Assembly: GCA_028554795.2 (NCBI GenBank)
Contig: CM068835.1
Coordinates: forward strand, 31,168,311 to 31,232,310
DNA length: 64,000 bases
Reading direction: 5' to 3'
Source of the DNA: Sinohyriopsis cumingii
Lineage: Eukaryota > Mollusca > Bivalvia > Unionida > Unionidae
Shown in pieces: positions 5,396 to 51,100 of this stretch (position 1 is its first letter; each line of letters begins with the position of its first letter). Below the pieces are notes generated by a model. It saw only the letters and a list, made by a program, of their open reading frames with translations, was not told where the DNA came from and did not search any database. The translations under genes and the position numbers were made by a program.

Positions 5396-5654
5396 ACAAA
5401 GTGAAAGTAAATAACAATATTTATAAAATAAAAAAATTCTGTACTGCAGAATGAAATTGTAATGGGGGAAGGATTGCCAGATCAGATGAAACTGAATTAT
5501 TGTATATTTACAGACAACCTGATATTACAGCATTGCGGCAATTACTGTACATGCTTCACAAATTTGGGATTTCTCATTCAATACTGTGGTCATGGCCATG
5601 GGGCAGAGGTAAAAGGTGTCCAGTATGAATAATGGATATCTATTCAATTGTGGA

Positions 5655-6195
5655 ACTCTGTCAGGAATTGTATTGTGCCTGCAGTGGATATTTTGGCAAA
5701 CCCCACTGATAGGAATTGCCTTGTGACTGCAGTGGATTTTTTGGCACACCTCGCTGATAGGAATTACATTGCGCCTGCAGTGAATTTTTTGGCACACCCT
5801 ACTGATAGGAACTGTATTGTGCCTGCAGTGGAATTTTTGGCACACCCCACTGATAGGAACTGTATTGTACCTGCAGTGGAATATTTGGCACACCCCACTG
5901 ATAGGAACTGTATTGTGCCTGCAGTGGAATTTTTGGCACACCCCACTGATAGGAACTGTATTGTGCCTGCAGTGGAATTTTTGGCACACCCCACTGATAG
6001 GAACTGTACTGTGCCTGCAGTGGAATTTTTGGCACACCCCACTGATAGAAACTGTATTGTACCTGCAGTGGAATGTTTGGCACACCCCACTGATAGGAAC
6101 TGTATTGTGCCTGCAGTGGAATTTTTGGCACACCCCACTGATAGGAATTGCATTGTGCCTGCAGTGGAATTTTTGGCACACCCCACTTATACAGC
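5655..6195. repeat. Minisatellite, 48 bp unit, ~11 copies
   Basis: Units contain CCTGCAGTGGAATTTTTGGC, then ACACCCCACTGATAGGAACT. Because 48 is divisible by 3 and the unit lacks stops in several frames, open frames of 130-227 codons appear on both strands (for example a 16-residue SGVCQKFHCRHNTVPI motif repeated). These have no flanking gene structure and I do not regard them as genes. Confidence 0.92.
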
Positions 6196-6295
6196 ATTCT
6201 TCTAGCATGTCATGTCAACAGGCTAAGCAAACATATGGGAGACACCCAGATGCCATAAACCCAACCAAGTGAGGTGTCAATTTCATAACATTGTT

Positions 6296-19096: not shown

Positions 19097-19379
19097 CTGC
19101 TTTCAGTGACACCTCTGGATCATTCTTTGCATAGTGTTCTCTCATTTTGACATACACGATGCCAAAAGTGTTGATGATTCCCATTACTGTACCATTAACA
19201 ATTAGAGAACTAATACATACTACCCACCCCCATCCTCCATCAGGTGGGTTAAATGCATTAGCATCCTGGGTAGTTTTCCCTTCCGTCAAAAGTGACAATC
19301 TTTTCTCTAAATCCTTGTCATCTTTTTGTTTTGTTTCTTTTGTTTTCCAACAATTGTGGCTTCCTTCTTCTTTCACCAT
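19097..19379 (-). CDS. SLC16A10-like: SLC16 transporter, proximal alternative first coding exon
   Basis: Codes for 94 residues plus one base. A hydrophilic cytosolic N-terminus of 43 residues (MVKEEGSHNC...) precedes NPPDGGWGWVV, the SLC16 entry motif, TM1 (CISSLIVNGTVMGIINTFGI) and VYVKMREHYAKNDPEVSLKA. The ATG at 19379 is supported by an in-frame TGA upstream (19419-19421). The donor is GCAG|GTAAAC (GT at 19096-19095), phase 1, matching the phase of the exon at 1681-2288. A candidate acceptor CCATTCAG ends at 19446, which would make this an internal exon with about 66 bases of 5' UTR. 44 of 52 residues from the motif onward match the distal copy. Confidence 0.88.
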
Positions 19380-19734
19380 TGTGCAAAGTGTGATGAAATT
19401 GAAATGTTGAATTTCTTTTCAAACAATCAGTGTGTATTTACAACCCTGAATGGCTCTTTATGTCCAAAAAATGAAAAACTATCAGATCAATCAGTTAAAT
19501 CAGTTATAACCCAGTACTTAGAAAACAACACATCCTTCCAAGCCTTGAGGCAAATAGCTTGTGAGGTGCTTTGCTTGCTTAGTTATCAGATACAGACGTC
19601 TCAGATAACAGCTCTACCTATGCTGACCACTCAACAGCCTAATATCTGTTAACCACTGAAGCTATTTAAATGACACAATACAACAGGATTTTCACAGTTA
19701 TCTCTCCTTATTACTCTTCCATTGACAAGATATG

Positions 19735-21060
19735 AAAACAAAGAATACATCTGAATAACTCATATTATTAATTTAACTCCCATAGAAAACCTATTGTCTC
19801 TATTTAGTTCTCTTACAAATAGAATATTAGGCTTTCAAAAATTATTTTTAATAAAATTTAGTTGAATTATCAAACAATCCTGGCTGGCAAACTATACTCT
19901 TTCTTTTCTTTTATTGTAACTTTAAAATAGATTTGAATTACAAAAATTATAACTTGAAATTCCTCCAGAACAGATATAATCTAAAATTTAAATAAGATAA
20001 AACTTAAATAAGATAGGCATAAGCCAATTAAATATAAACAAAATATATACAAAACATAAAGTTCCAGAGCATTCACTGAATGAAACTGGTTGGACTCATA
20101 TTCATGAGTGGAACCAATTTAAGGATGCTGTTCTATATTGGACTCATGGTACTAATTCAGCTCCCATAGTAAACCTATCGAAATATCATAATATTAATAA
20201 TTCCATATCTTTACATTTCTGAATTCTCATGAACAAAATTATATTTATCAATATAGACATATCCTTGATGACAGCTTCCGTGTAGAGAAAACCATATAAG
20301 CTGCAGCATTTTTGCAATCTATTGGCGTTTTAAATGTTTCTTTCAATTCCACACCAAAGGGTCAGGTGCAAATCTCAGCAATGAGTATTCTAAACTCATC
20401 TGTAAAAGAATGAAATTCAATCAATCTCTATTTTTCTTTTCAAGTAAAGCCAAGATGAACTCTCAAAAATTTCCTTTTACTCAAAAATCTTACTCTCATT
20501 ATCAACCAATTCTGGCCAACCAAACCAATATAGACTCTATTTTATTTTCACCCATTTCAGGGCTGGTTCCCATTCTTCCTTATCATCAGTACAGTACCAT
20601 AAGTCCTTCAGGGCTTACATACTTATTCAGCTTCAGTAGTAAACATCTGGAAACACATGATATAAAAAAATTCAATAACTTTAAACTTCTGAATGTTCGT
20701 GATCAAAGCTATTTTTCTCAATATATGATCCGGCCGTCACTAATGCAAAGTCCTGCATGGAAAAAACCATATGTCCTGTGACATGTTTTAGTTTTACATG
20801 TCTTTTCAATTCATATCCAAAGAATTGGGTTCTAATTTCAGCAATGAGTGAATATGTCTCCCAAAGTGATGTCTGTAAAATGACTGAAATTTCATCAATA
20901 AAACACTGTTCCATGTTTTTTTTCCTTACAAATAAGATATGCTCTCAAAAATGCTTTTTACAAAAGTTTCACTTTTCGTTATCAACTGATCATGGCCTGG
21001 AGCCAGACCCATTTACACTCTATTTTATCTTCACACATTTCTAGACTGTTTGATATTTTT
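19735..21060. repeat. Degenerate ~460 bp tandem repeat, 2-3 copies
   Basis: Landmarks recur about 462 bases apart: AATTTCAGCAATGAGT-like (20381 and 20843), AAAACCATAT, CTCTCAAAAATG or CTCTCAAAAATT, and GACTCTATTTTATTTTCAC versus CACTCTATTTTATCTTCAC. A more decayed copy precedes them. Non-coding; a 123-codon frame inside is not convincing. Confidence 0.6.
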
Positions 21061-21229
21061 ACACTTAAATTAAGTACCAGAAGTCCTGATGAGTCACTGT
21101 TCCAATGAATTCCATTAAGTGAATGAGTTAAATAAATTAATAAATGAATGAATGTTCATTTAAACATAAATTCATTTTTTGGCATGTAAGTCTGCAAACA
21201 AACTGAGGCAAGCAAGATGTAAGCAGTTT

Positions 21230-21600
21230 AAGAAAATGGATATTTGTAACTTGCAACTGTTGTGGCCATATTGTGCAACAGATCGATACCATTTTCATTT
21301 TGGACCAACCTTTTAACAAGTTTGACAGTGATAACCCCACTGCAATATTACATTTCATTCATAAAGATTAGTGACAAGATGTCCAAGATGGCCAATGTCA
21401 GGACTAAATTGGACATCTGATCAGCATCATTTTCATTAAAGCCCACAAGAAGTCTTAATCCCCAGAAAATCCCTTGACAAAATGACTTTCTGTTTGGAAT
21501 AGCAGTAACAATATTTTCATGATGGTCACTGTGGCAGTCATACTGGATGTTTTAGTGGCACCATTTTCAATGTTCAATTTTCGATATGAAAATACGTAAT
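21230..21600 (+). repeat. AAGATGGC-type repeat, ~3 diverged units
   Basis: Contains TGTTGTGGCCATATTG, ACCATTTTCATTTTGGACCA, GTCCAAGATGGCC, ATTTTCATGATGGTC and the AAGAAGTCTTA landmark. Directly precedes the decayed LINE. Confidence 0.6.
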
Positions 21601-21879
21601 TAAGAGTCAATGTTTTATCAGGAAAAAACTAATTGGCATGAGCGAAATGGTGACAGAAAGGGGAGACCACTGACAATCGGGAAACTCGCGTGAACTGTTG
21701 TATGATAGCTAGCCACTGAAAGATTTTGGCGAAGGAGAAGCATACAACATTGCTATAGATACCACTATGGATGTTTGAGAGCAAGGGAGGATGATCAACC
21801 ACACAGCCAGACCATCAGCACAAACATGCTTGATCAATGGACAGTGAATGAGTATATGGACTTATACCGGTACTAGTAT

Positions 21880-24075
21880 ATAGTCTCCGTGGCAAAACAT
21901 GTAAAACTGAGAAAAATTCACAGTCCTCTGACCCTGAATCTAGTACAACACATCGTGAGAGATTGGAGATGCACCAGGATACACACCAAAAAGGTCAAGC
22001 ACCTCCAAGTGTTAGTGGATAAAAACGAGTTAAGCAACAAGGGGGAGAATATAAATACTTCAGAGGGTTGCAATGGTAAATAAAAGTGTTAGTCAACAGA
22101 AGCTAAGAGCAAAGTATGGCCTTTGAGTTCAAACATAACAATATGGAAACAGTTTGAAGAAGATGTAAACCAACTATTGGAAATAACTTGGGCAGGAAAT
22201 ATTGACAGAAAAGGTGGAAAAAAAAACAGCCACCATCATCAACAGCATTTTTATGACCCTTTGATCTTAAACTAAGTAAGAAAAAAAGCAAAACAAAAGT
22301 TTTGTAAATTTTACAAACTATTTATTTCCCTACAATACAAAGTGAAAATTTAAAAAGAACTTATAGTATTGTGAATTAAATCCCAAATAATATTGAAAGT
22401 TATATCTCAAGTTAAAAAATGCAGTGTTCTGAATGAATTCCTATTTTGAATGTACAGATGTGCCAACAGTCTTAAGTATTACAATGATATAATCCATAAT
22501 GTCTCTGACTGAATCCCAAATAATCACAAAATAGCATCTTAGTCCAAAAGTCAATGAGCACTTTGCATAAATAATTTAAATAAATGCTTCCCCTCAAATT
22601 TTATATCTAAACAAAACTAACAATAAAAGTTTGCTATCTAAACATGTTGCTTACAAAAGTTTGCTACCTAAACATGTTGTTTACAAAAGTTTGCTATCTA
22701 AACATGTTTACAAATGATCATTAGCTTAAACTATAACCTACAATCATGCACAACAGTTAAGCACACAACACAGACATAAATAACAGTACTGGAAATGATC
22801 GGTTTGAGTATAAGAAATGAAGCAGAGAAATAAAAAAGACAACCATTCACTGCAGAAAAGAGCAGAGTTGCGGAGACTGGTATGAAGGTAATATAATGCA
22901 GTGGATGAAGAGAAAAAGGTGCTGAGCCACTTTAGAGTAACCTATAAGAAAGGCTGAAGACAATAAAATGAGCAGAAAATTCAGAAAAAACAGAATGAAG
23001 CTTATGCAGGAGAGATCACACTTGACTGCTAATCTGGCTTCATCAAAGGGACAAAATATCAGGGAAACCTGAATGTCCAAGAAAAGCACTAGAAGAACAT
23101 TAGAGAAAACCCTCCAGTGATACTGATAGAGTGAAGGACATTGGAGAGCAGCCTTGACTAATAAATCCTGAAGAACCAGCAGAAGAGGCAAGTTGACTGA
23201 GAGTTGTCTGCTTACAGAGGGCAGCTTTATTCTGAAGGAAGAGAAAAATTCATCAGAAATTAAGCCATTCAGGTAAATATCCCTTCTAAACATCAAAGGA
23301 ACATGCAGTTATCATGCCAGCTTCTAATTTCTGCCATATTTGCAGTTGTGTAGTCTGACATTTTAAAGTCAGTAATCAAACAATGCAGGACAATATATCT
23401 GTAAATATCAAAGGCTAGGTATGCCTAGCCATCCTTGCCCCAGTAACGGATGAAACAAATCCTGAAGAACAAGTACATCAAAACTTCCGGTCAGAAAGGC
23501 ATAGTTCCAGAAGTAAAGTGTTTGCCTTGTGCACACAAGTACCATAATGGAGATCATCCAGGATGCTATTAAGGAAAACAAGTATGATCAGACAGTGATG
23601 TAGTGAGACCTTTCCAATGCATATGGCAGCATTCCACACAACTTCAGGTGAACCTTACTCAACAGAATTCTCATGCACCAGATAAGTTCAGGGGCATGTT
23701 TGAAAACTGCCTCAATAACTTCAAACTATATTTCACCATGTCTGACTACACTACAACATGGCTGAGATTAGAAGCTGACATCATAACTGGATTTACCATT
23801 TTGTTGGTACTATTTTAGCTTTGGATTGACCATTTTGGTGGTACTATTTTCACTTTAATGAATCTCCATGCAAAGTCTACAGAGAAAATGAGTCAAGGAC
23901 CAATTATGTCATCTGTAGTTCCGCAGCCTCCTACAAGGGCCTTCATGGATAATATGACAATTACATCCAAGTTGGAACCAGATTTTAAATGGATCTTAGA
24001 AGATCTTGGAGACCCAATTAACTTGGCCTGGATGAAATTCAAGTCATCCAAGTCTAGAAGTCTGGTCTGGAAGAA
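21880..24075 (+). mobile_element. Decayed LINE with FMDD-type reverse transcriptase
   Basis: Scattered plus-strand frames match a LINE polyprotein type I know from fish, cnidarians and molluscs. Near 22.14-22.2 kb: WKQFEEDVNQLLE. Near 23.27 kb: ISLLNIKG. Near 23.61 kb: DLSNAYGSIPHN (RT motif A, expected DLANAYGSIPH). Near 23.77 kb: LEADIITG. At 23858-24066: QPPTRAFMDN and FKSSKSRSLV. The catalytic FMDD is FMDN here, so the second Asp is lost, and several frame breaks and stops occur. An AT-rich unrelated stretch (about 22.29-22.8 kb) interrupts it. Clade not assigned. Clearly dead. Confidence 0.7.
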
Positions 24076-27000
24076 TATTGGTTTTCACATGACTCAGATT
24101 TTCTATGAATGCTACAGTATATTTGCTGAAGGTATATATTGGTTTTCACATGGTTCAGACAATCTACACATTTGTACAGTTTGAATTTCAAACTTTGTAT
24201 GTATAATGCAGCAGCAAATTCACTGTTGCTACATTTTACTACATGATGTATCATAATTATTTGGCTTGGCAAAAGCAGACAAAAATGTCTCTGTGATGAG
24301 GGACTTGCCAAAATTACAGGTCACAGCATGAAGGAAATGATTTCAGTGATTTGTCTGGTGATTTGGAAGAAAGAGCCAATGGTGGTACTGTGCAAATTCA
24401 AAATTATATTTTGAGCCAAAGATGGCAGAAAACACAAATTCTGGTCATTTGAAGCCACATGAAGATAAGCCAGTGTTTGATGAAGTTCGGTCAAACTGGA
24501 TCAAACAGGAATGAGATAGGTCAGGATGTGTTTCCTTCATTGAGAAAACTGATAAGGATAAATTGTTTGCTTATAGGAGTACAGTATCCTAAAAGGGTGG
24601 AGAAGAAAATAAGAGCTATAATGGAGAAAGAGAAAGATTAAGAGAGGAAACAAAGAAAGCAAAAGGTAGAATTAAAATCAAAAGTTCAAAGAAAGGTAAA
24701 GCTATTTAAATTTGTTATGAATTCTGATAAAATTGCAATGAATGATTTAAGAAAAATAAGGATGTTTAAAATAAGGTCCATACAAAATTTTCAAATTCAG
24801 GATATATTCCTTTGATTCAGAGTTCTTCATCCATCTCAGACGAGTTGGACAGTGAATCTGTTGATTGTTCGTGATGACCAAAAATCCAAATCTGATATAA
24901 AATATTTGAAGTTGTCTGATTCCAAGTCATTATATCCATCTGAGAGTTTTAAGAATAGTAACATGCTAAATCCAAAATAAAAAAAGTAAAATATCTCAAG
25001 AATCAAGGCCAATTGTTTTGACAAGGTCAAATTTAAGCAAAACTGGTCTCATTCCCATTTACAATTTGAATTTGTGAATGAAGCCAAATACTTTGATGAT
25101 CTCCACTTGAATACCTTTGAAGCAGATGCAGAAATTTCAATGTCCAAAGACACAGTGGAATGAATTTATAAAAAAAAACAAAAACAATAATACCACAATC
25201 TATGAATGGAAGTCACTAAAAGCCTTGCATTACAGCCTGACTTTGACAAATCAAATTAGGAAACATATGTTGTCAGATGATCAGAAACAAATTAAGAGGC
25301 AATGTTAGCTAACACTGTGCTACTTAACGATTTCAGGAAAAGCAGGTCTTTCTTGCCTGCTTTTCATAAGGTTCAGTGCATATCCACTTATTTCACTAAA
25401 CTAAAATGGTTAAACACCCAATTCTGTCTTGCAGTGTGTGTACCACATAAGCAAATATTTTTTATCACTGAAAAGATCATTGTTTCTCTGCCTATATTTA
25501 AGCGAACAGCTGATTTAAATGTCTGGTCAAATTTTATTGTCTGGTGACACACGATCTATAAAATAAACTAAAAAGACACATGATGTTACAACTCTATGGT
25601 CATAAAGAAAGTAACAGAAAGAAGCAAAACTAAAATGTTTTCTAAAACTTAACAATTTAATTATCAAAGTTATAAATGAAAAATTGAGAGGAATTTACAG
25701 TACTATGAAGTGAATCCAAATTATACCTGATAAAGTTCTAATAAAGTCCAAAAGAATGAAAAGTTCCGTATAAATTTCAAAACTGGAAATAAATTGGTCT
25801 GCTAAGAATCATAACATTGTCAATATGGCATCATTCAGAACTCCTCTGAACAATTCACATAGTTCCAGAATAATATTATATTCCAAATAATGAGCACTTT
25901 CTATTTTCAAAGAACAGTCCAAACAAATGTTTTTTTCGTTTGGAATAATATCTAAGTAGAACCTAAAGCATGTGTGCAGACTTACAACAGGAACACAAGA
26001 AATGATGATGACTCCAAAATAAGAATGAATCTGATTGCACAGTTCCCTCTTTATATACACCTTCTATCATGACTATATTTCACAACATACCATGTGACGT
26101 ATTTTACCACTCAATTTATTTTGAACTTTATGCTTATTTCATTTTGAGTGCAGCAAGGAGGATGTAATTGCAATTATATTCAAAATTACACTACAATTTC
26201 GAAATGTGTAATCAAGATTGAGAACCTATGACATGGCTCATGTAATTCAGATTTGCAGAACTAAGAAAGTACATTTTGAGGAAATTCAGGATGTAAACTG
26301 TAAGTATATTTTATCTGCCGTTCTTATCACCAGCTAAAGAAGACAGTATATGACTTGTCACTTGTATGTTATTTGTAAGGACCCTTTCTTGCGTCTGTTG
26401 TAGGCCTATAGCTAGCCTAAATCCAGAACAATGTATCAACAAAGTTGACGTGGAATGTGCCAAAGCAGCTGGTAGGTGGCAGTCCACAAAACATCTGCTT
26501 TAGTTTATTTAAAAACAAATTTAAACAACCACAACGTAAAGCACCTACTACATGAGTGTACATGATTTGTTTACAAATCAAAAGTGCTGGCGTCTGTGTC
26601 CATTGTTTGTTTACAGTCTGACTTTTTTGAAAGGATGCTTGCTTGCTTGTTTCTTGTGCAAGATCAAGTTTTCAGATAATTTCAGACATAGGCTAAAAAT
26701 GTTGTGAGCAAATGATGGAGAAAATCTGTTGTTGAAATTAGTCATAAGAAATTTATTTTGATTAAGAAAATAAAGTTAAACAAAAATCATTGGGTGTTTT
26801 TTCAATTCTAAATGTTTATCAATTTAAACTTAAAAATACCCAATTATTTAAGTAAAAACCCACCTATGGGTTTATCTCCTTTAAATTCTGTATGTAAGAA
26901 AGGCAGAGTTATTTTATATTCCAGTTTCCCAAGCAGCAAGCTGTCACTGATTATTTTGCTAAAAATTATTATTAAGGTGATTTAGTGAATTCTGTCTATC

Positions 27001-27944
27001 AAAGTGTAGATGATTTTTATAGAGATAATCAAAAGCAACAGGAGAGGCTGTCTTTTATTAAAAAGAAATCTTAGTAGAGCTTACAGACAAATACAATCAA
27101 CTCGGGTTGTTGGACACTTTTATTAGGTACAGGATTGTCAGAGGACCTAACTCTTTATAGCTTCCCAATTTCTATTGCATTTAGGTTCCTGAAAAATTGT
27201 CTGCTCTTAAGTTATTTTTGTATATGAATTTTGACCCATATTAGAATGCAAAAACAACAGAATAAACATCATTACATGTTTTGACAATAACTGGCCTGTA
27301 GATTGAAATGTTGTAGAAGAAATGACGATTCAAAAATTTTATGTCCACATATTAGGAGGTAAACATGGTAATTATTAAGCTGCCAGCCCATTTAGAAATT
27401 ATCTATATATGTTTCATATTTCTAAATAACTTCTATTTGCCAAACAAAGCCTCAATTCAATACACCTACTTGGTCATTTCAGTGACAGGAAAATACCCAG
27501 TGCATAGGACACATTATTTCTCAAATATTTAGCACATTGTTGGTTACCAGTATTATTGTGCGAAACTTGATTTAATATAATAATTTCTGTTAAATATATA
27601 TTAATGACATGTGACACATTAATTGTTGAAAAGTCATTTTCTTGTATGCCAAAATTAAAGTATTTTACAACCAGATAAAAGTCTGTGCTTCATTTTTATT
27701 AAAAAACTAAAATACCTGTCACCTTTGTGCATGATATCAATTTTATTAAAATTCTGTAGGAATTACCAAAAACAATGGCAATAACAAATTGGCTATCAAT
27801 ATGAGTTGTTCAAACATGCTGGATTCAAAGCAAAGATGGTATTCAACTCAGTCCATATAGGACCTAATAGACCCCAAACATAGTTTAACAACTTTCAGAC
27901 AATGAATTGATCACTGGGTTTCTAAGCCATCAGCAGATGTTGAC
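24076..27944. other. AT-rich intron, nothing firmly recognised
   Basis: No gene, tandem array or terminal repeat that I can support. The stretch 24.3-25.56 kb carries fragments of low-complexity, Lys- and Ser-rich frames on the plus strand that could be a decayed element, and 25.6-26.07 kb differs in texture, but I cannot name either. The rest is unique-looking. Confidence 0.35.
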
Positions 27945-30525
27945 TTGATATTGAATTTTAATCCTTCATTAGAAGACCTTGATCTACTAGGATAATATTG
28001 ACCTATAATCCTTTATTAGAAAACACTGATCTACTGAAATAATATTGTCCTTTAACCCTTCAATAGAAGACCTTGATCTACCGGGATAATATTGACCTTT
28101 AATCCTTCATTAGAAGACTTGGATCTACCGGGATAATACTGACCTTTAATCCTTCATTAGAAGACTTGGATCTACTGGGATAATATTGACTCCTTCATTA
28201 GAAGACTTGGATCTACTGGATAATATTGACCTTTAATCCTTCATTAAATGACTTGGATCGACTGGGATAATATTCACCTTTAATCCTTCAATAGAAGACC
28301 TTGATCTACTGGGATAATATTCACCTTTAATCCTTCATTAAATGACTTGGATCTACTGGGATAATATTGACCTTTAATCTTTCATTAGAAGACTTGGATC
28401 TACTGGGATAATATTGACCTGTAATCCTTCATTAGAAGACTTGGATCTACTGGGATAATATTGACTCCTTCATTAGAAGACTTGGATCTACTGGGATAAT
28501 ATTGACCTTTAATCCTTCATTAAATGACTTGGATCTACTGGGATAATATTGACCTGTAATCCTTCATTAGAAGACTTGGATCTACTGGGATAATATTGAC
28601 TCCTTCATTAGAAGACTTGGATCTACCGGGATAATACTGACCTTTAATCCTTCATTAGAAGACTTGGATCTACTGGGATAATATTGACTCCTTCATTAGA
28701 AGACTTGGATCTACTGGATAATATTGACCTTTAATCCTTCATTAAATGACTTGGATCTACTGGGATAATATTGACCTTTAATCTTTCAATAGAAGACCTT
28801 GATCTACTGGGATAATATTGACCTTTAATCCTTCATTAAATGACTTGGATCTACTGGGATAATATTGACCTTTAATCTTTCATTAGAAGACTTGGATCTA
28901 CTGGGATAATATTGACCTTTAATCCTTCAATAGAAGACCTTGATCTACTGGGATAATATTGACCTTTAATCCTTCATTAGATGACTTGGATCTACTGGAT
29001 AATATTGACCTTTAATCCTTCATTAAATGACTTGGATCTACTGGGATAATATTGACCTTTAATCTTTCATTAGAAGACTTGGATCTACTGGGATAATATT
29101 GACCTTTAATCTTTCATTAGAAGACTTGGATCTACTGGGATAATATTGACCTTTAATCTTTCATTAGAAGACTTGGATCTACTGGGATAATACTGACCTT
29201 TAATCCTTCATTAAATGACTTGGATCTACTGGGATAATATTGACCTTTAATCCTTCATTAAATGACTTGGATCTACTGGGATAATATTGACCTTTAATCT
29301 TTCATTAGAAGACTTGGATCTATTTGGATAATATTGACCTGTAATCCTTCATTAGAAGACTTGGATCTACTGGGATAATATTGACCTTTAATCTTTCATT
29401 AGAAGACTTGGATCTATTTGGATAATATTGACCTATAACCCTTTATTAGAAGACTTGGATCTACTGGGATAATATTGACCTTTAATCCTTCATTAGAAGA
29501 CTTGGATCTACTGGGATAATATTGACCTTTAATCTTTCATTAGAAGACTTGGATCTATTTGGATAATATTGACCTGTAATCCTTCATTAGAAGACTTGGA
29601 TCTACCAGGATAATACTGACCTATAATCCTTTATTAGAAGACTTGGATCTACTGGGATAATATTGACCTTTAATCCTTCATTAGAAGACTTGAATCTATT
29701 TGGATAATATTGACCTGTAATCTTTCATTAGAAGACTTGGATCTACCGGGATAATATTGACCTTTAATCTTTCATTAGAAGACTTGGATCTATTTGGATA
29801 ATATTGACCTGTAATCCTTCATTAGAAGACTTGGATCTACCAGGATAATACTGACCTATAATCCTTTATTAGAAGACTTGGATCTACTGGGATAATATTG
29901 ACCTTTAATCCTTCATTAGAAGACTTGGATCTACTTGGATAACATTGACCTTTAATCCTTTAAGACCTTGATCTACTGGGATAATATTGACCTATAATCC
30001 TTTCTTTAGAAGACATTGATCGACGGAGATAATATGGTCCTTTAGTCCTTCATTAGAAGACTTTGATCTATTGGGATAATACTGACCTTTAATCCTTCAT
30101 TAGATGACTTGGATCTACTGGGATAATATTGACCTTTAATCCTTCATTAAATGACTTGGATCTACTGGGATAATATTGACCTTTAATCCTTTAAGACCTT
30201 GATCTACTGGGATAATACTGACCTATAATCCTTTCTTTAGAAGACATTGATTGACGGAGATAATATGGTCCTTTAGTCCTTCATTAGAAGACTTTGATCT
30301 ATTGGGATAATACTGGCCTTTAATCCTTCATTAGATGACCTAGATCTACTGGGATAATATTGACCTTTAGTTCTTAATTACAAGACGTTGACCTTTAATT
30401 CTTTATTAGAAGATCTTGATCTACTGGGACAATATTGACATTTAGTTCTTTATTAGAAAATCTTGATCTATTTGGATAATATTGACCTTTAATCCTTCAT
30501 TAGAAGACTTTGATCTACTGGGATA
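27945..30525. repeat. Minisatellite, 47 bp unit, ~54 copies
   Basis: Units contain GAAGACTTGGATCTACTGGG, ATAATATTGACC and TTTAATCCTTCATTA. A shorter variant lacks about 9 bases after GAC. Other variants (TATTTGGATAAT, CCAGGATAATACTG) recur as blocks: the CCAGGA marker at 29605 and 29840 is 235 bases apart, exactly five units, showing higher-order duplication. Edges are more diverged than the middle, as expected for unequal exchange. Confidence 0.95.
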
Positions 30526-30949
30526 CTTTTCGATGGCTTCTGTCTAGGTGAGTTAGTGGGTGTACCAACTATTCATATCTGTTTTGATCTATGTACCTAT
30601 GCCATCATGGTGGGCCTTCTGCTTGGTGACCTGAGTGATTTCAATATTTTCTTTACATTTTCATGTGAATTTGTATAATTTCTACAGCCATTGACTAAAA
30701 TTGCTTTGCTGTGTCATTCTTATATAATTCTGAGTGAACAGTCATTCTGTAATTGCAACTCTCAAAGTAACTCTCTGGAAAGACATCTGAACACAAATAC
30801 AATCTGAACACTCAGTACTTCTTTCTGTTGTAATTTAATTTTATTATCAAGCACATTCATTCTTGCCTTCCATCTTAATTATTATTGTCAGTATATTATA
30901 TTTTCTCAAATAGCTTTCTTTTGTGATGGATCAACTAGTTATCATATCT
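30526..30949. other. Intron, nothing recognised
   Basis: Unique AT-rich sequence between the 47-bp array and the next dispersed repeat. Confidence 0.4.
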
Positions 30950-31345
30950 TCAGGTGAAAATCAGATGTCAGTGTGACTTCTATTCAGGAGTAGCTATAAT
31001 GATTTTCACAATATCCACTGTGGCAGCCATACTGGATGTCCAAGTGGCACTGTTTTCATTTAAGACAAACTAGACACCCAATAAGAAGTCTTGCGGTGAA
31101 ACCCCATGTCAGCATGATTTTCAGTTCAGGAGTAATGGAAACAAGATTATCAAAATGTCAACTGCAGTAGCTATATACTGGATGTCTAAGCAGCACCATT
31201 TGCATTAAGAACTAACAACTGGGATATGCATCTACAGGTTCATGACAATCTTTGAAGTAGTTTATCAGGAATAGTGATAAAACCTTGTCCTAATGAACAA
31301 TGAATGATGGACAAGAGAACATCCCATAAGCTCTTCCTGTTTATC
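30950..31345 (+). repeat. AAGATGGC-type repeat, 2 units plus terminal segment
   Basis: Units with GTGGCAGCCATACTGGATGT, AATAAGAAGTCTTG and CAGGAGTAATGG. It closes with the family terminal segment (TTCATGACAATCTTTGAAGT...GGACAAGAGAACATCCCATA AGCTC). Confidence 0.65.
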
Positions 31346-32480
31346 ACCAATAAAGCCAAACATTGCTGCAATGATATGTACATTTAATCTGCTCATCTAT
31401 GACCATAATAAAGTGCTTATAATTATAATGGTCTACATTTTACAGGAATTGTGCTACCATGCTAAAACTGGCTGGACATAAATATGGACAGCAGGATAGC
31501 AAATGCTACCATAGTGTAGTACTGTAAGTAGTGATGTCTTCCCCATGTTTGATAGTTCTAATGAAGGCACTAGTATATTACTACACATGACTGTACAGCA
31601 CTAGTTAACTTATGAGTAACAATGACCCTGACCTTATCAAAATAAAAGACATCTGTTACATTCCTTACCCCAATGACAAACCATTTACTGTGAAATTTAG
31701 TCAATGAAACTGGTGCACAACACAAGTTATAATGTAAAACAATTTTTGTTTCTTACATCATTGCGACATGGAGAGCTTTAAGATATCTAGCCCATTTACA
31801 GCTAAGGTTCCTACCATAATAGCAGCTCAGCCATACTTAAAGTTTGCTGCCATTATACAGTTTGCACTTATTTTACATACATAGTTTCCTTTAGTTTTTG
31901 TCATGGTGATCTTTGATCTTACGACTCCCAAATCAATAGTCAAGGTGAGTGGTCTACAAATAATCTATTATGCAATTTTTTTATATTTTGATAACTGTTA
32001 CTTTGAAAAAAAGTTCCTGCCTCTACAGCAACCAATCCACCAAGTTAGGTCAAGGTCAAGGTATTTCTTTTCTAAGTCACTGTTACCATGACCACTGATA
32101 TTTTGAGCCAAAATTGATGGGTTTCTTCAAGACCTCATCTGAACACCAATCACAAAGTCTGATGAAAATATGAGGTCTAAAACTAAATATTGCATAGCAA
32201 AAAACTTTCTTATTCGAGCTGTTGTAACCTTAACCTCTGACTCTTTTTTACTTTATTATTAATAGATTTCTTCCTTACACTAAGTGTAAGCCACAGGAAA
32301 AATTTGGTCAAATTCTGAAACCTGAAACCAAAACTATTGTGCAAAAGTCCCAAAACATGTCAGAGAGATGGACCACATTATAGCAGTAATTTGTCTTATG
32401 GCCAGCTCTAACGAATTACATTTCTTGAGGTGACTGACGTGTTACTGTATTAAAAATTTTACCAGGAATTCAACACAATT
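31346..32480. other. Intron with a TCAAGGTCA-bearing dispersed repeat
   Basis: About 31.88-32.35 kb resembles, in wording and order, 46.25-46.8 kb (GGTCAAGG..., ...GATTTCTTCCTTAC...CTAAGTG-CAAGCCAC..., ...GGTCAAATTCTG). It contains overlapping AGGTCAAGGTCAAGG at 32046-32063. Probably an old dispersed element common in molluscs; boundaries not resolved. Confidence 0.4.
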
Positions 32481-32690
32481 TTACATAATGACACCATCAT
32501 TCATGACCAACTAATTAACATAATAAGCCTTCTGGTGAAATATCCATTTCCATATAACTTTCCAAACAGGAGGAGCACCAATAACTAGATGGTTCTCATG
32601 GTGGTAATAGTGATGTCATATTGGCGCCATTTTCATTTACTACCAACTAGGCATCATAAAAGGTTTTTGATGAAAACCCAAGGCTGATTA
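32481..32690 (+). repeat. AAGATGGC-type repeat, about 1.5 units
   Basis: GATGTCATATTGGCGCCATT, TTCATTTACTACCAACTAGG and CATCATAAAAGG landmarks of the family. It sits on the far side of a MITE and a LINE from the array at 34.97 kb, so those elements may have inserted into one longer array. Confidence 0.55.
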
Positions 32691-32765
32691 ACTGAAACGA
32701 TTGCTTACTTCTCTGGATAATTAATGCTTATTACAATTTTCCCTTACAAAGAGCATCTGAGAGCA

Positions 32766-32969
32766 TAAATATCTTAGGAGTTTGAAATTTTTGGCAATAT
32801 CACATGACTAATAATGGTCATGCGATACAAGACTAGTATACATGGGTGGTAATGCAAGCACCAGTCTCCTCATATCACACAATCTCCTGTTATCACATGA
32901 CCATTATAAGTTACATGATCAACTGACGATGGCTATATGATATTGCCAAAAAAACTCAAAAGATATTTA
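32766..32969. mobile_element. ~200 bp MITE with TA flanks
   Basis: Left end ATAAATATCTTAGGAGTTTG...TTTTTGGCAATATCACATGAC is mirrored at the right end, ...ATGATATTGCCAAAAAAACT CAAAAGATATTTAT. Terminal inverted repeats of about 50 bases, TA at both borders, suggesting a Tc1/mariner-type MITE. Its right border abuts the LINE tail. Confidence 0.7.
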
Positions 32970-34962
32970 TAATAATAATAATAATAATAACAATAATAAT
33001 AATAATAATGACGACTTTGTAGAGCACCTAATCTTCAGAAGCTCTAAGCACTTTACAACATTAGACAACATCTATAACATAAAAAACATATGATATGATT
33101 ACAAAAAACAAATACCATGAAATCAGAAAACATAAAAACATGCTGAAAATATTTAATGTAGGGAACATTATTAGGTCTTTAAGTTTGTTCTTGCAGTCGA
33201 AATAAGTGAGTTTTAAGAGCCCTCTTGAATGTGATCACTGTGTCTTTGTGTCTAAGTTCAGTGGGCAATTCATTCTACTTTGCTGGGCCCTGGTATGCAA
33301 AAGAACGTTGTCCATATTACTTTGTTTTCATAGTGGGAATAATGAGTATATGGTTGTCAGAAGAGGAGAGTAAGTATCTTGCTAGTGTGTGCACATGGAT
33401 GAGGTCAGATAGGTATGTTGGACTAGAGTCCAACAGTGAAATGTAGCACAGAGAACAAATTTTGTGTTTGATTCTGGATTGAATGGATAGCCACTGTAGG
33501 GTACAGAGCAGCGGGGAGGTGTGCTCTGATCGTGGTACTCTAAGTATGATCCGAGCAGTGTTGTTTTGAACTTTTGAAGTTTCTGGAGTAGATATTGAGA
33601 TGAACCAGACAGAATTGAGTTACAATCGATCATCAGCTCCATTTGCAAATATCTTTCAGTTGATGCCACTAAAACACTTGTGTGTTCATTAGTACTTTCA
33701 AGACTGCAGTCTCAGCTCAAGATATGCAGCCTTGCATATGTTCATGACATGTTGGTGCAACGTGAGAGTACTGTCCAGAGTAACACCTATGTTTTGTACT
33801 GATTGTGTGAATTTAATGTTGGTGTTGCTGATATTTATTGTTTGAGGTAAAAAATGTGAATGAGAAAGTCTTTGTGTTGTGATCAGAATGGCCTCAGTTT
33901 TATCATCATTCATCTGCAGCTTGTTACATGTCATCCATGATTTCACATTAGAAATGCACCTCTCTACACCTTGGATGGTAGCATCAACTTCAGTTAGGTG
34001 GCTAGATTTGTATATTTGGGTGTCATCAGCGTACAATTGGTGAGACACTGGATGATGATTTATGACACTTGAGAGCGGATGAGTGTATAGAATGAAAAGA
34101 ACAAGTCCAATAACAGACCCCTGTGGAACACCACAACATAGATCAACTGGGCTGGAGTGTATTCCATTTGCAGACACAATTTGTGTCCTGTTGACTAAGT
34201 AGGACTTGAACAACAGTAAGGCTGTATCATGAATGCCAAATACATGCTGGAGATGGTGAAGTAATATATCATGGTCTATTGTGTCAAATGCTGCAGACAA
34301 ATCAAGGAGGGTAAGGACTGTAATCATTCCGCTATCCAAAGCAGAGAATGTCATTAACTACTTTTAGAAGATTAGTTTCAGTACTGTGGCAAGGGCAATA
34401 TGCAGATTGTACATTGCTAAAAAGACTTTGAATTCAGATGAGATACAAGTTGGAATAGAACAACTTTTTCTAAGATTTTTTGTATGAATGGGAGATTAGA
34501 AACTGGGCGGTAGTTCTTTAAACTGTTATGGTCTAGTGTTGGTTTCTTCAGCAGAGGCTTTACAATGGCAGTTTTGAAAAATGATGGGAATTCCCCAGAT
34601 GAGAGGGAGGTATTAATAACATCAGTTAGTGAAGGCAATACTGGATTTAAGCTCTCAAGCAGCAGTAATGTTGGAACTGGATCAAGTTCACATGACTTTG
34701 GTGCACTCTTCACCAGGATTGTACGTACGAAATCCATAGAGACAGGTTCAAATGCTGCTAATGGTTGCTGCTCAAATTCTGTATCCCAACTGTATGGTGA
34801 CAATGAGTCAACTGAAAATTTATGCTCTGAGTACGGGAAAATTCTAATAACAACTGCTGATATGACTTTCCATCTAAGAGATGTAGTCACAAGACTTATG
34901 ATGGAAGCTGTTAGGCTGCAATGGATATCAAATCAGCAAAATTTGTTTTTAACACTGACTTG
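32970..34962 (-). mobile_element. LINE of the CR1/L2/Jockey group, 5'-truncated
   Basis: Minus-strand RT domain, in order: KSCELDPVPT, FFKTAIVKPLLKKP, LKNYRPVSNLPFIQKILEKV, then in another frame LDLSAAFDTIDHDILLHHLQ (motif A), CCGVPQGSVIGLVLFILYT (motif B), HQLYADDTQIY (motif C, catalytic YADD intact), then the C-terminal thumb (CNSILSGSSQYLLQKLQKF) and a final ITFKRALKTH-like segment. The 3' end is a (ATT)n tail at 32970-33008. At least two frameshifts separate the RT pieces near 34.35-34.43 kb, and stops occur downstream. The endonuclease region is absent. Inactive, moderately old. Confidence 0.88.
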
Positions 34963-34964
34963 AC

Positions 34965-35905
34965 ACTATAAAATCTCCTGTTAAAACCCAATGTTGATAT
35001 GACTTCCCATTCAGCTGTAACACAATTTTCAAGATGGCTGCTATGATGGCCATATCAGATGTCAGATCATCACTATTTTCATTTAGGATCAACCAGACAT
35101 TATAAGAAGTCTTTTAGTGGAAACCCAATGCTAATATAACCGCTCATTCAGGCAAAGTAGTGATAACAAAACAGTTGCTATGGTGGCCATATTGGGTGTC
35201 CAGGAGCACCATTTTCATTTAGGACCAACCAGAGATCATAATAAGTCTTCTCATGAAAACACCATTTTGATATGAAGACAGATAGAAATAATAAGATTTT
35301 CAGGCTGGCTGCTTTGGTAGAACGTCCAAATAGATGATTTTCATTTAATACCAACTATAAATCATAAGAATTATTATGAAAACTGTGTCTCAATGGCTTT
35401 CTGTTTAAGAGGAATGGCAGTAACACGACTTTCAAGATGCCTAATTGTATAGCAACTATATTGGATGTCAGATTGACATCATCTGCATTTAGGCCCAAAT
35501 ATGAACCATAAGAAGTATTTTAGTGAAAACTACCATTCATTTAGAAGTAGTAGTGATAAACAAGCTGGCCATTGTGGCAGTTATACTGGGAGTCAGATCT
35601 GCCCTACTTTCAGCTAGGTCTAGCTAGACATAAATACAAATTATGTTCATGAAATTCCCATGTTGATATGACCATCAAAAAAGGAGTATCAAATGATAAC
35701 ATTTTCAAGATGGCTGCTATGATGGCCATACTGGGCAGTACCAATTTCATTCTAGACCATCTAGACCTTGGAATGAATGTGCGTCACTGGTTTCATAGCA
35801 ATCCTCCAAGCGGGAGCAGTAATAAGAAACTTGTAATAATGGACAGTTGGACACTGGATGACAGGCAACTGGACAATGACCAGTAGAGCTAGAGCATGAA
35901 AGCAT
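34965..35905 (+). repeat. AAGATGGC-type array, ~7 units of ~135-141 bp, with terminal segment
   Basis: The clearest array. Each unit has CAAGATGGCTGCTATG, GTGGCCATATTGG, CACCATTTTCATTTAGGACC, AACTAGACATCATAAG-type and AAGTCTTTTAGTGAAAACCC words. Cores lie at 35030, 35171, 35305, 35440, 35570 and 35706. The array ends with a GGAATGAATGTGCG...TTTCATAGCAATCC...GGACAGTTGG segment. Not coding. Confidence 0.8.
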
Positions 35906-36779
35906 TGACCACACAGGTCTACCTAAACCCCCACAGTCTGATAATGAAACATTTACATATATTTTGCAATACATCCTGTTACAAAGATTTGTTGTTGATT
36001 ATAAGAAAGCCAACCAGATCTACAATAAATTTGCAAGGAACAATAATTATCCCTCCATTTCTGAAATAAAAGATGGGGATTATTTCATCCAGCCCATCTG
36101 TACTTCTGCCCATCATTCTGTTAATGTGGTTATCTCTGATAACTGTGACAGCTAAATATACCCTCTTGAAACAGTGGCTATGAGCTGTGATTGGGATATG
36201 AAGTTCCTATTTATCAAATCAGTGTAAATTACATGTCCTTATATTTTTTACATTTTTATATGCACACACGTATTATATCCATGTAATAAGGAAATGACAG
36301 AAATTTAGAGGGGGAACAAGACACTATACATTTATATATAAGGCAAGGTTGGCAACATATTCTCCAGGTGGGGTGCAATATAAACATTGATAAATATTTG
36401 TACAAATCATACCTTATTTTAAAAAAAACGAGTGTTAATCATCCATCAAGCAGCATGGTAACATGACTTTAAGGATTGTAGTTCCAAAGTAATCCAGAAA
36501 AATGACAGTAAATCCAATGTGAAGATATTTAGTTTGACTCCATTTCCAAGGTCAAGGTCACATTTCCTATGCCATGGAATATTCCCTTCGTATTTAAATT
36601 ATAAATGTTTAATAAAAAAATTATAAACAGTGCAGACTTTATGTATTTACTAATCCATAAACTTACAACTGAAAATAAAATGAAAACACTTTATATTTGT
36701 TCGGATCTATTGTTGTAAACTCAGTCATATGTAAATAGCAAAGGTAGACAATTCAGGTTGCAAGTATCATTTTGCATAT
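35906..36779. other. Intron, one nuclear-receptor-like motif
   Basis: Mostly unique. AAGGTCAAGGTCAC at about 36548-36561 is a tandem AGGTCA. No exon seen. Confidence 0.4.
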
Positions 36780-37835
36780 ATTTACTGCAGTGAGTATTAT
36801 GCAACCTTGCCCTTGGAAATGCAACCTTGACTTTGGAAATGGAGTCACACTAAATTTTGAACATGTTGGATTTACAATGATTATGGCTGCTGTGATAGCC
36901 ATACTTGACATCGGAGAGGTACCATTTTCACCACACATGGTCTTTTATTGAAAACCTCATGTTGATAATGAGCAAGCATTCACGAGGAATTGTAACAACA
37001 ATAACAAGATTTTCAAGATGACTGATGTGGTTGATATAGTACTGTATGCCTGATTGGCAAAATTTGTATTTCAGACCATTCAGACATAACAATAAGTCTT
37101 TTAGTGAAAACCTCATATTGTGTTGAACATCCATTCAGGTGTAGCAGTGATAACAAGATTTTTAAGATGGTGGCCATACTGGATACATACTGTCACCATT
37201 TTTGTTTAGGTCCAACAGGAAGAAATCTTTCAATGAAATTCTCATGTTGATATGACCATCTATATAGGAGTAGCAATAAAAAGATTTTCAAAATGGCTGC
37301 CATGGAGTCTTTTAGTGAAAAACTCATGTCCCTATAACTTTCTGTTCCTTTGGAGTTGCAAAGAAAAATTCAAGATGGTGGCCATTTTGGACATCATATT
37401 GGCACCATTTTTACTTAGGCCCAACAAGGCATCATAAGGAGTTCTCAAATGAAATCTTAATGTTCGTATGACCATGAAAGGGTAAGGATGACAAGATTTT
37501 CAAAAATGGCTACCATAGTGTCCATATTGGACATTAGATCAGCACTATTTTCATTTATGACCAACTAGACGTCATAAGAAGTCTTTTAGTGAAAACTATA
37601 TATTTATATGATCATCCATTCAGGAGAAGCATTAAAAAAACATTTACAAGATGGCCACCATGGCAGCTATATTTGATAGCTCAGCTGCACCATTTTCATT
37701 TATAAACAGCTAGACCAGAGGATGAATATGTTTCTACAGTTTAAACAGTTTCAAAAACAGTGAAAACAAGCTTGTGCTAAGTGACAGACAAGAGACCATA
37801 TCATAAGCTCTCTGGTCTGTGACAGCTGAGCTAAA
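36780..37835 (+). repeat. AAGATGGC-type array, ~7 units with terminal segment
   Basis: Cores near 36885, 37010, 37165, 37275, 37370, 37500 and 37645, some units shortened to about 95-110 bases. Ends with GGATGAATATG...GACAGACAAGAGACCATATC ATAAGCTC and CTGAGCTAAAA, the same kind of terminus as the other arrays. Lies about 290 bases on the intron side of the distal first coding exon. Confidence 0.78.
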
Positions 37836-38123
37836 ATAAGAACATATCCTTATGAAATAATCCTACCGTGTTTGATAAAGTTGGCTCAGGCTTTCTTGAG
37901 AATGTGAAAATCAGTGTTTCATATTCCTGCTATGGAAGTCACACTGCTACTATGTGGGTCACCCCAATCAAAATATTAGTTGAGCATGTCCTAATAAAAA
38001 CTACCGTGAAGTTCAATCCAAACTGCAGTTTGGGAGAAGAAGGTTAAAAAAGTATATAAAGATGGATCATGAGCTATTTTTACCTCTAAAAATTCCTTAA
38101 TGGAGTTAAAAATTTGTAGACTT

Positions 38124-38126
38124 GCC
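38124..38126 (-). promoter_or_regulatory. Non-canonical GC splice donor
   Basis: The distal first coding exon ends AAAGCAG|GCAAGTC. The intron would start with GC at 38125-38124 inside AG|GCAAGT, the strong consensus of GC-AG introns. The GT in the paralogous position of the proximal exon is 19096-19095. No GT donor in the right phase lies nearby, because the frame stops 24 bases later. Confidence 0.75.
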
Positions 38127-38387
38127 TGCTTTTAAAGAGACTTCAGGGTCATCCTTTGCATAATGTTCTCTCATCTTAACATAGACTATCCCGAAAGTGT
38201 TGATGATGCCAAACACTGTACCATTGGCCCAAAGGGAAGTCAGACAGACCATCCAACCCCAACCACCATCTGGCGGAATGAGCTCATCTAAAGGGGTTGC
38301 CACTGAGCTCTTCTTTCTGATTTCTCCATTTTCCTTAAGAGGCTGTTTAGCTTCATTGTCAGATTTAATGCTACCATCTTTTGCCAT
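38126..38387 (-). CDS. SLC16A10-like: SLC16 transporter, distal alternative first coding exon
   Basis: Codes for 87 residues plus one base: a 36-residue hydrophilic start (MAKDGSIKSD...), then IPPDGGWGWMV, TM1 (CLTSLWANGTVFGIINTFGI) and VYVKMREHYAKDDPEVSLKA. The ATG is supported by an in-frame TGA 13-15 bases upstream. The acceptor CTTATCTTCCAG ends at 38414, so this is an internal exon with about 26 bases of 5' UTR, and a further upstream non-coding exon is implied. It ends in phase 1, like the proximal copy. LWANGTVFG is closer to the MCT10 pattern MWCNGSVFG (as I recall it) than the proximal LIVNGTVMG, so this may be the ancestral version. Confidence 0.88.
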
Positions 38388-38430
38388 CTCGATCCTAAGT
38401 CATCCAGTTCAACCTGGAAGATAAGGTCCA

Positions 38431-39274
38431 ATAAAGATGTCAGAAGAATAATTATTTGTATGGAAACATCCAGTAAAGATATGTCAGATGAATAATTGGC
38501 TGAATGGAAACATAAGATATGTCAGATGAATAATTGGCTGAAGGCAAACATAAGATATGTCAGATGAATAATTGGCTGAATGGAAACATAAGATATGTCA
38601 GATGAATAATTGGCTGTATGAAACCATAAGATAAGTCAGATGAATAATTGGCTGTATGGAAACATAAGATATGTCAGATGGATAATTGGCTGTATGGAAA
38701 CATAAGATATGTCAGATGAATAATTGGCTGTATGGAAACATAAGATATGTCAGATGAATAATTGGCTGAAGGCAAACATAAGATATGTCAGATGAATAAT
38801 TGGCTGAATGGAAACATAAGATATGTCAGATGAATAATTGGCTGTATGAAACCATAAGATAAGTCAGATGAATAATTGGCTGTATGGAAACATAAGATAT
38901 GTCAGATGGATAATTGGCTGTATGGAAACATAAGATATGTCAGATGAATAATTGGCTGTATGGAAACATAAGATACGTCAGATGAATAATTGGCTGTATG
39001 GAAACATAAGATATATCAGATGAATAATTGGCTGTATGGAAACATAAGATATGTCAGATGAATAATTGGCTGTAGGAAACCATAAGATATGTCAGATGAA
39101 CAATTGGCTGTATGGAAACATAAGATACGTCAGATGAATAATTGGCTGAATGGAAACATAAGATATGTCAGATGAATAATTGGCTGTAGGGAAACATAAG
39201 ATATGTCAGATGAATAATTGGCTGAATGGAAACATAAGATATGTCAGATGAATAATTGGCTGTAGGGAAACATA
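38431..39274. repeat. Minisatellite, 38 bp unit, 21 copies plus one degenerate
   Basis: Units of ATAAGATATGTCAGATGAAT plus AATTGGCTGTATGGAAAC. A marker variant (CTGAAGGCAAAC) at 38540 and 38768 is 228 bases apart, exactly six units, and the intervening unit variants repeat in the same order: a higher-order duplication. The first, degenerate unit ends 16 bases from the acceptor of the distal first coding exon. On the gene strand each unit contains CATCTGAC and, 22 bases on, TTTCCATACAG. Confidence 0.95.
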
Positions 39275-39419
39275 ATAGTTGTAGCATAAGTTGACCTCAC
39301 CAGTCTATGTTCTGAAGATATATTACTTTAAAGTTAATATATAAATTACTTTGTACAACAGTTTTCAAACTGTATTTGAGATATGATATTGCATTCACTG
39401 TTAAAGGGTTTCATACATG

Positions 39420-48189: not shown

Positions 48190-51100
48190 CAGAGGAATGA
48201 TCTAAAGGATGGGAAGGTGTAAGCAAACACTCAATCCAACTTCAGATTTAAAGCATTCACTTTCCTGTTCACCAAAATGAGAAATCTGAGAGGGCATAAG
48301 TACAGACTGCCAGAGGGAACCAGGTCCATTGCAAAGTAGAAGGTGCCCAGCAAAGAAAGAAAATAACAAGTCAATCACATGGTCATTTTTTCTCAGAGCA
48401 TCCGACCGGGACAGGATCTTGACTACTCTGTCCATGTGAACACAGACTAATCCCATTTGTTAGCAGATTCATCCCCACATAGATGAAATCTTTAGATGGG
48501 TTAAGCTTCAATTTCTCAAAGCTGGGTAGAAGACCCAGACTGGTTTCTACAGACAAACATTGAGACAGATAGAGTCTGAGTGACTCTAACTGGCCACTGT
48601 GGATCAACCAATCAAAACAGGAGGCTTGGGATACTTAGCGATTTTACACAGGCTGAAAAACCTCTCTACTGCACCCTTCTGAAGAAAGAAGGGTGCTTCA
48701 TCCTTCAATTGCACCTGAGATTCAGCTGAAGAAAACACAAGGAGGACATAACTAGAGAAGGGAGATCATGAAATCAAAACCAGTATCCACATTTCCTTAC
48801 AGAATAGACCCAGCCATCAACTGTGAGGCCAAACCAAGCTCTGCAAAGAGGTTTAGCCTACAAGATTCAATGGAAGAGGAACACTGAAAAAGAGGGAGAA
48901 AGTACCTGGGGCTGTCCACTCTTGTCCTTAGAACAAGGGGAAAAAAACTTCATTCCTGTGCACCTTTTTGGAACCAAAATGCCAAAGGGAGTTCTGAAAT
49001 GGGGTTTTTGCTTTGACTGGTGCTGACTGCTCTGGTGGCCTAGTAGTTAGAGCATCTGCCTCAGATGCAGGAGGTCATGGGTTCAAACCTGGCCGAGTCA
49101 TATCAAAGACTATAAAAATGGTACTAACAGCTGCCTCACTAGGTGCTCAGCATTAAAAGCTTAGTGTTAGGTCTGGTCGGCCTGGTGTCAGGATAATGTG
49201 ACTGGGTCGGACACCATACTATATGTGTGCAGCATGATGCCCCAGTGCTAGATATCACTATAAACTGTTACACTGTAGACATAGCAATATGGCTTTAAAG
49301 AACTTTACTGATGGACCTTGTGGTCCTTCAGGATGATTTTTGCCTTTTGGCCAGTTCAATGTGCCAGAAGTGGATGTGAAGGATGAATGTTGCTAGCCCT
49401 GACATCTGAGGAATGAACCATCTGAAGAATCTCTGCTTCTAGGAGAGCTGCCTGCAGAAGGTTCTTACTGTGCTCCAGTAAGACCTTGGATTTATCCTGT
49501 GCAACATCTCTCCAGAGGTGGAAAAGCTCCAATGACATGGCATGGACAAGGATAACATATGTCAATATGCTGCTGCTTCCAACAAAGGATGATGAACAAT
49601 TGGTGACAGAGATTCCACTTTCAGTAAGTTGAACGATGCTGCTGAAAAGTAGTTGGCATGTGAGGCTAAGGTTGCTAATGACTTAGCCTTTTGTTCTAAA
49701 GTTTCCTGTACTTAAACTGGGAGGCAGGCCCAAGTCACCCTGGAAATCCACTTGAGTTGCTTTGGTAACCAAAATGGCAGGTTAAACTGGCAAGGAATGG
49801 GTATGAATCTTACAGTTATAAGTAGAGCCCAAGGGTCTCAACATGGGGAGGGTGGACGTACCAACCCTATTATTGTCATCTATAATCTTGAACCGTACTA
49901 AATTTCTGGAAAGCACCTTAATCGTATCCATGTGAGGAGCAATAAGAAATCTGGTTGAGAGTTAGCTCCAGAAAGTTTCTCCTACCTGGAAAGAATTTTA
50001 GTGTAACACAGTCTGAGGGGTTGGGAATAGATCACTGGGCAAAAGACAGTAAATCATAATTACTACTTTGTAGAAAGACCGGATCTTGTACTTCTCTGCC
50101 ATCTTTATCAACATATGGGAGGAGGTATGAGCCTTTTCTATATCAAACTCATGCAAGATGATGAGAAAAGAAAGATGTTTTCATCCTGTTCTTCCTCTTG
50201 GGAAGCAGGACTTGTAATCCAATGTCCTTCTGATGTGGGGAAAACTTATGGGGTAAGTGAATCCTGATTCCAAAATCTTACGGACTGTCCCTAGTAGCTA
50301 GCTCAGCAGGTGGGGAAGAATGACTCTCTACCCACCAGGAGCATTTCAGGAAAGGCACACCCACCTCCCTCTTTTATGACACAAGTTGTAAGAGGAAGAT
50401 GTAGGTTCAGGGCTGACAGCATTGATGTTTCTACAATGTGTCCTGAAGGCTATGACTGCATGATGGGAAAGGGACAATTACCACCCTGTGGTAAAAGGCC
50501 TCACACCCAGTACAAATTTAGAGTGTTTATAAGAAATGGGGTTGTTGATCTCATCACCCTATCCAGTCTGGTGTCTAAGCCAATTCCTAATCCCCAATGG
50601 GATGAAACTGCAGTCTGGAGATTGGGGGGGGGGTCTCAATGCAATCCTTATCCCCATACTGAACAGGTTCCTATGACCAGTGACCGGCACCTAGTAATGA
50701 ATCAACGAATGGTGCCCAGTGACTCATGCCCTGTAATCAGTCAGGTAACTCAGATGGCCAGAGGATCATTCCCAGGATCAGATAGATTTAGATCAATGTA
50801 CTCCCCTTGCCAGGTGACTCAATTCTTTTGCCAATAACAGCCCTGAGGACTGAAATGGTGCAGCTCACCCCTTACTGTGGCCAACTCATTTTCAGTCAAC
50901 ACCAAGCTGTGGTTAAGTAGAAGGTGCTGTTCCTCTATAATGGGTGGTGGGCAGGACTCATTCTGCCCTTCTCTTTGAAAGAGGGCATTGCTTCCCCCCC
51001 CCCCAAATGGTGGAGTGCAACTGAATCTCTGTCCTAGTGGAAAAGAGAAAGTGCAGCTCCTCCCTCATGGAAAGGTGCAACTCTCTCTCTGCCTTTGTGG

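Follow-up and report, generated by a model that had tools for sequence, protein, structure and literature searches.

Our analysis of a 64,000-nucleotide stretch of the genome of the bivalve Sinohyriopsis cumingii (C12:31168311-31232310 of a 2.9-Gb genome assembly; hereafter the window) points to a gene for a transporter resembling MCT10 (SLC16A10) and MCT8 (SLC16A2) in which the first coding exon is present in two homologous copies, A and B. Most likely, this is one gene with duplicated first coding exons, a common exon 2 and two predicted promoters, and it probably makes two protein versions which differ in the cytosolic tail and in the first transmembrane helix (TM1). The gene architecture as read from the sequence is well supported and ordinary in kind. 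The elements on which this model is built are the following:

19097-19379, minus strand: exon A, first coding exon, ATG at 19379, 94 codons plus one nucleotide, donor CAG|GTAAAC.

38126-38387, minus strand: exon B, first coding exon, ATG at 38387, 87 codons plus one nucleotide, GC donor CAG|GCAAGT.

38388-38413, minus strand: probable 5′ untranslated region (UTR) part of exon B, with a putative 3′ splice site ttccag|GTTGAA and 38413 as first exon base.

1681-2288, minus strand: exon 2, common to A and B, acceptor score 7.78, donor GTAAGT.

An earlier sequence-only reading had proposed two homologous first exons at these places, and both are indeed there on the minus strand: within the window, a tblastn query with A finds B (E 6.3e-26) and one with B finds A (E 5.3e-26). 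They lie 19 kb apart, 16.8 kb (A) and 35.8 kb (B) upstream of exon 2, and each has its own ATG and donor and is free of frameshifts and stops. Between PPDGGWGW, the SLC16 signature motif which leads into TM1 in both exons, and the sequence SLKA, the two agree at 43 of 50 residues, or at 44 of 51 if the split alanine codon is counted, so that the high identity reported before stands but not its count of 44 in 52. Likewise, the described bias of the differences towards the N-terminus and the lone late N/D exchange were confirmed, with corrected numbers: seven differences in total instead of eight, six of them within the first 22 residues, rather than seven within the first 23, and one (N/D) within the last 28. 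Both exons end in phase 1, as had been stated, on GCAG. The codon split at the junction with exon 2 is g|CA and encodes alanine (SLKA-A-FVGS); the proposed SLKA-G was wrong because the glycine had been read from the intron.

To follow the gene beyond exon 2, 60 kb to the left of the window were taken in, where two further exons were located:

C12:31155429-31155063, minus strand: exon 3, left of the window.

C12:31153834-31153728, minus strand: exon 4, left of the window.

Joined to exons 2 to 4, either A or B gives an open frame throughout, with a product of 448 residues for B and a version seven residues longer for A. Compared with the PDB, the B product has 13 distinct sequences past E 0.001, with MCT structures on top: MCT10 is best (401 bits, E 5.2e-119, aligned to residues 63-480 of its chain), followed by MCT8 with 360, MCT2 with 121 and MCT1 with 118 bits, and the similarity to MCT10 and MCT8 extends along nearly the whole joined product. 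Pfam MFS_1 was matched above its cut-off by A plus exon 2 (E 3.9e-19) and by B plus exon 2 (E 6.6e-21), and the NCBIfam monocarboxylate transporter model TIGR00892 gave 124.9 and 119.6 bits against a whole-protein cut-off of 586.1, the queries being the N-terminal part only. DGGWGW has been described as the MCT2 form of the SLC16 motif leading to TM1 (PMC7228944). Judged by bit scores among the MCTs in the PDB, the predicted protein is therefore a member of the SLC16 family nearer to MCT8 and MCT10 than to MCT1 and MCT2, in agreement with its previous description as an MCT8/10-like transporter.

The way in which A and B differ at the nucleotide level speaks for the age of both exons. The 37 nucleotide differences between PPDGG and SLKA are distributed over codon positions 1, 2 and 3 as 6, 3 and 28, a third-position excess with P = 1.7e-7 against an even third. 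Silent changes are found in 23 of the 40 identical degenerate codons and, among the last 28 codons, where the residues hardly vary, in 14 of 26, which argues that the near-identity of the second half does not result from recent copying or gene conversion. Maximum-likelihood estimates of synonymous divergence (dS) came to 4.9 over the full comparison and to 24.6 over its last 29 codons, values that are taken solely as a sign of saturation, and the NG86 method returned no dS. In a blastn comparison of 7 kb around A with 7 kb around B, eight pieces of 17-101 bp were common to both, and the 101-bp piece falls within the exons themselves. Because silent sites are far more changed than residues, A and B are, on this pattern, both old and both retained by purifying selection on the protein.

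The same pattern bears on the idea that either A or B has gone out of use and is dead or decaying. The non-canonical GC donor of B could be taken as a sign of such decay. Apart from the GC, however, CAG|GCAAGT agrees with the donor consensus, and in both exons silent change greatly exceeds residue change, the frame is intact and the ATG and donor are kept, although this evidence is insensitive to a very recent loss. We thus consider a dying copy very improbable, and a reading of A or B as a pseudo-exon was discarded because of the silent-site pattern. Even less probable, to the point of being hardly credible, are two tandem genes of which one has lost the rest of its exons from view, an alternative that the sequence-only reading had left standing. 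Tandem MCT-like genes do exist elsewhere in the genome: on C5, around 94.2-94.3 Mb, a first exon is paired with an exon 2 three times. A genome-wide search scored 150 out of 224 initial candidates for exon 2, 13 of 13 for exon B and 17 of 17 for exon A; its counts are lower bounds, and the assembly may be incomplete. In this search, exon 2 had one match of 100%, the other 19 matches being only 24-33% identical. Exon B, by contrast, found itself (100%), A (74%) and a next match of 47% among at least 9 places, and exon A found itself (100%), B (74%) and a next match of 45% among at least 10. At eight of nine other first-exon-like places, an exon-2-like match on the same strand follows downstream at a distance of at most 25 kb (lists compared by eye), the lone place without one being C8:39359401; whole-gene MCT-like duplicates, tandem ones included, thus carry their own exon 2. 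Within the window, exon 2 is the sole fitting downstream exon, as had been claimed before, and no exon-2 relic was found between A and B. The finding of a single close exon 2 for two close first exons in the genome, the relic-free window and the conservation of donor and phase in both first exons led us to reject the two-gene reading. When bacterial and archaeal contigs were scanned for exon 2, none of 22 pattern matches was confirmed.

One gene with two interchangeable first coding exons is thus the preferred reading, and the choice between A and B could be made by promoters or by splicing. We scored candidate 3′ splice sites with a matrix built from general base frequencies at such sites. 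The acceptor of B, 26 nt before its ATG, reaches 5.08, and only 36 of 3616 AGs on the same strand score at least 5; exons 2 and 4 have 7.78 and 6.39. The best of the 22 AGs within 330 nt above the ATG of A scores 1.01. Since B has a good acceptor and A has only weak candidates within this distance, alternative promoters are more likely than classical mutually exclusive splicing, in which one promoter and one non-coding first exon would serve a regulated choice of A or B. The latter, the main rival, we regard as unlikely. It would fit the good acceptor of B, and homologous exons which act in this way are common in transport genes (PMC9741552). Moreover, A may have an acceptor after all, be it the AG with 1.01 or one scoring 6.07 at 1.4 kb, and the real exon-3 site scores −0.69, for which reason mutually exclusive splicing keeps some probability and the statement that A has no acceptor was reduced from a firm claim to a lean. 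Against it stands the gap between the best score at A and those of exons 2, 4 and B, as does the presence of an ATG of its own in each exon, which separate starts would predict but which is no proof. Hence, the earlier proposal of two alternative starts of one gene, by promoters or by exclusive splicing, is supported as regards the interchangeable exons, and its mechanism leans to promoters. GC donors such as that of B, a feature which the earlier reading had missed, have been reported to be enriched in alternatively spliced genes (PMC2490688).

Under this favoured model, an old duplication of exon 1 would have produced the two homologous first coding exons. The far promoter would give a transcript with a non-coding exon, which is to be expected further upstream given the good 3′ splice site of B, followed by B and exon 2, whereas transcripts from the near promoter would begin in exon A. 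Lacking a usable 3′ splice site, if that is indeed the case, A would be skipped in the long transcript without a special exclusion device. Splicing of A or B to the common exon 2 would then yield two proteins with different cytosolic N-terminal tails and TM1. Several observations weigh against this model. The genome search for exon 2 covered only part of its candidates in an assembly that may be incomplete; the 5,000 bases directly left of the window, which fall in intron 2, are N; and beyond exon 4 no final coding exon was identified. In addition, the score of the real exon-3 acceptor is exceeded by several AGs above A, which makes the splice-site comparison a weak test, and AGs scoring 6.07 and 5.44 sit 1.0-1.4 kb above A, so that a non-coding exon might precede A, or A might extend far in the 5′ direction.

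The region upstream of B has a further peculiarity:

38476-39275, minus strand: tandem array of a 38-bp unit, 21.1 copies (Tandem Repeats Finder).

This array lies directly upstream of the acceptor of B, and its units end like a 3′ splice site, with a pyrimidine stretch and CAG. Among the 21 unit ends CAG|CCAATT, 20 have a branch-point-like CTGA(C/T) 23 nt before the AG; all 21 units contain an ATG, and their acceptor scores range from 1.9 to 4.98. The array unit matches the splice-site region of B with a score of 34, which none of 4909 random same-strand stretches reached (best 32), and this kinship suggests that the array arose from the splice site of B or has a common origin with it. Between the acceptor and the ATG of B, positions 38388-38413 hold stops in the reading frame as well as a short upstream ATG-ACT-TAG. 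Because in-frame stops precede the ATG of B, splicing at the array AGs would extend nothing but the 5′ UTR.

The residues exchanged in TM1 can be placed on human MCT8. In PMC3155110, the conserved TM1 tryptophan is numbered 1.50 and H192 1.67, and the tryptophan is therefore W175. The six TM1 differences between A and B then correspond to positions 176, 179, 180, 183, 184 and 189. At 183 and 189, B has tryptophan and phenylalanine like MCT8 and MCT10, whereas A has isoleucine and methionine. From PPDGG to SLKA, B is identical to MCT10 at 25 and to MCT8 at 20 of 50 positions, A at 21 and 19. With its tryptophan and phenylalanine, isoform B may keep the older state, in which case isoform A would be the one that has changed, both at a likely substrate-site residue and along the N-terminal half of TM1. 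Both isoforms have asparagine at the equivalent of 193, as in MCT8 and MCT10, and isoleucine at the equivalent of 192, unlike the histidine of MCT8.

The possible bearing of these exchanges on transport can be judged from work on related proteins. N193 of MCT8 has been aligned with K38 of MCT1, and its change affects the transport of thyroxine (T4) more than that of triiodothyronine (T3) (PMC11904026). Counting four residues back from N193/K38 without gaps, MCT8 position 189 would be the equivalent of Tyr34. This tyrosine forms part of the substrate site in MCT2, where Y34F abolished active transport (PMC7228944), and Y34A weakened inhibitor binding in MCT1 and MCT2 11- and 23-fold (PMC12894981). 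In MCT2, the start of TM1 inserts into a pocket of the other subunit in the dimer (PMC7228944), and the N-terminal half of TM1 could therefore influence dimer coupling, should the present protein form dimers. The effects of the swap on substrate, trafficking or partner binding that had been proposed earlier are conjectural. Five of the six differences (all but 189) lie on the helix side away from 192/193. In a helical-wheel permutation, clustering on one face was not significant (P 0.24 for 176-198 and 0.15 for 176-189), and we do not uphold the earlier claim that the exons exchange one face of TM1. It is tempting to see in the exon swap a switch of substrate and dimer coupling, with methionine in place of Phe189 and a rewritten N-terminal half of TM1 in isoform A, which would provide two specificities and hetero-dimers from one gene. 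Taken jointly with the idea that the array sets the amount of B's 5′ UTR with upstream ATGs, this reading of the sequence is tentative and rather doubtful.

Besides the gene, the window contains repeats and fragments of mobile elements:

33701-34357, minus strand: retrotransposon remnant with part of a reverse transcriptase (Pfam RVT_1, E 5e-20), in the intron that separates B from A.

34420-34932, minus strand: probable continuation of the retrotransposon fragment, no Pfam match.

5528-6214 (minus strand) and 5633-6202 (plus strand): 48-bp tandem repeat, 11 copies, with frames of 229 and 190 codons.

49029-49100, plus strand: tRNA-like stretch, Rfam 29.3 bits against a threshold of 29, no ARAGORN call.

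The window is very rich in minisatellites, for which Tandem Repeats Finder gave 66 rows, including those that overlap. The unit length of the 48-bp repeat is a multiple of three, which explains the long frames on both strands, and the Pfam matches of these frames are likely composition artefacts. The tRNA-like stretch is perhaps part of a tRNA-derived short interspersed nuclear element (SINE). A SINE-like stretch had tentatively suggested a molluscan origin, and a search for a mollusc haemocyanin domain had no match anywhere, not even among its 14 controls, and so carries no weight. Of the 20 longest stop-to-stop frames, seven were compared with Pfam and gave one reverse transcriptase and weak matches of a repeat frame, while five had no match. 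Elsewhere in the genome, three tandem MCT-like genes, each with a first-exon-like and an exon-2-like match, lie at C5:94.17-94.35 Mb.

The choice between homologous exons is well known in ion-transport genes (PMC9741552). The tandem duplicated exon substitution events described in that study resemble the present case in that old, homologous and selected copies occur in a membrane transport gene; here, in contrast, they are first coding exons with their own ATGs, 19 kb apart, and with a predicted choice of promoter. Similarly, the clustered first exons of vertebrate protocadherins and the 5′ cassettes of chelicerate Dscam (PMC4835542) combine homologous 5′ units, each able to begin a transcript, with a constant part, but the Sinohyriopsis gene has two units only, encodes a transporter and would rely on promoter use. 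A limited literature search, which left most subscription journals outside and is weak evidence of absence, turned up no report that SLC16A10, SLC16A2 or a relative from invertebrates has a pair of first coding exons. The interest of the gene lies in the likely substrate-site position among the few residues that are changed. If both isoforms are made, the SLC16 family would gain a case of choice between homologous first exons. The pair would also be an experiment by nature on the TM1 of a transporter of the MCT8/10 type, with changes at the putative substrate-site position and in that half of the helix which lies near the dimer contact of MCT2, in two proteins which are identical beyond the first exon.

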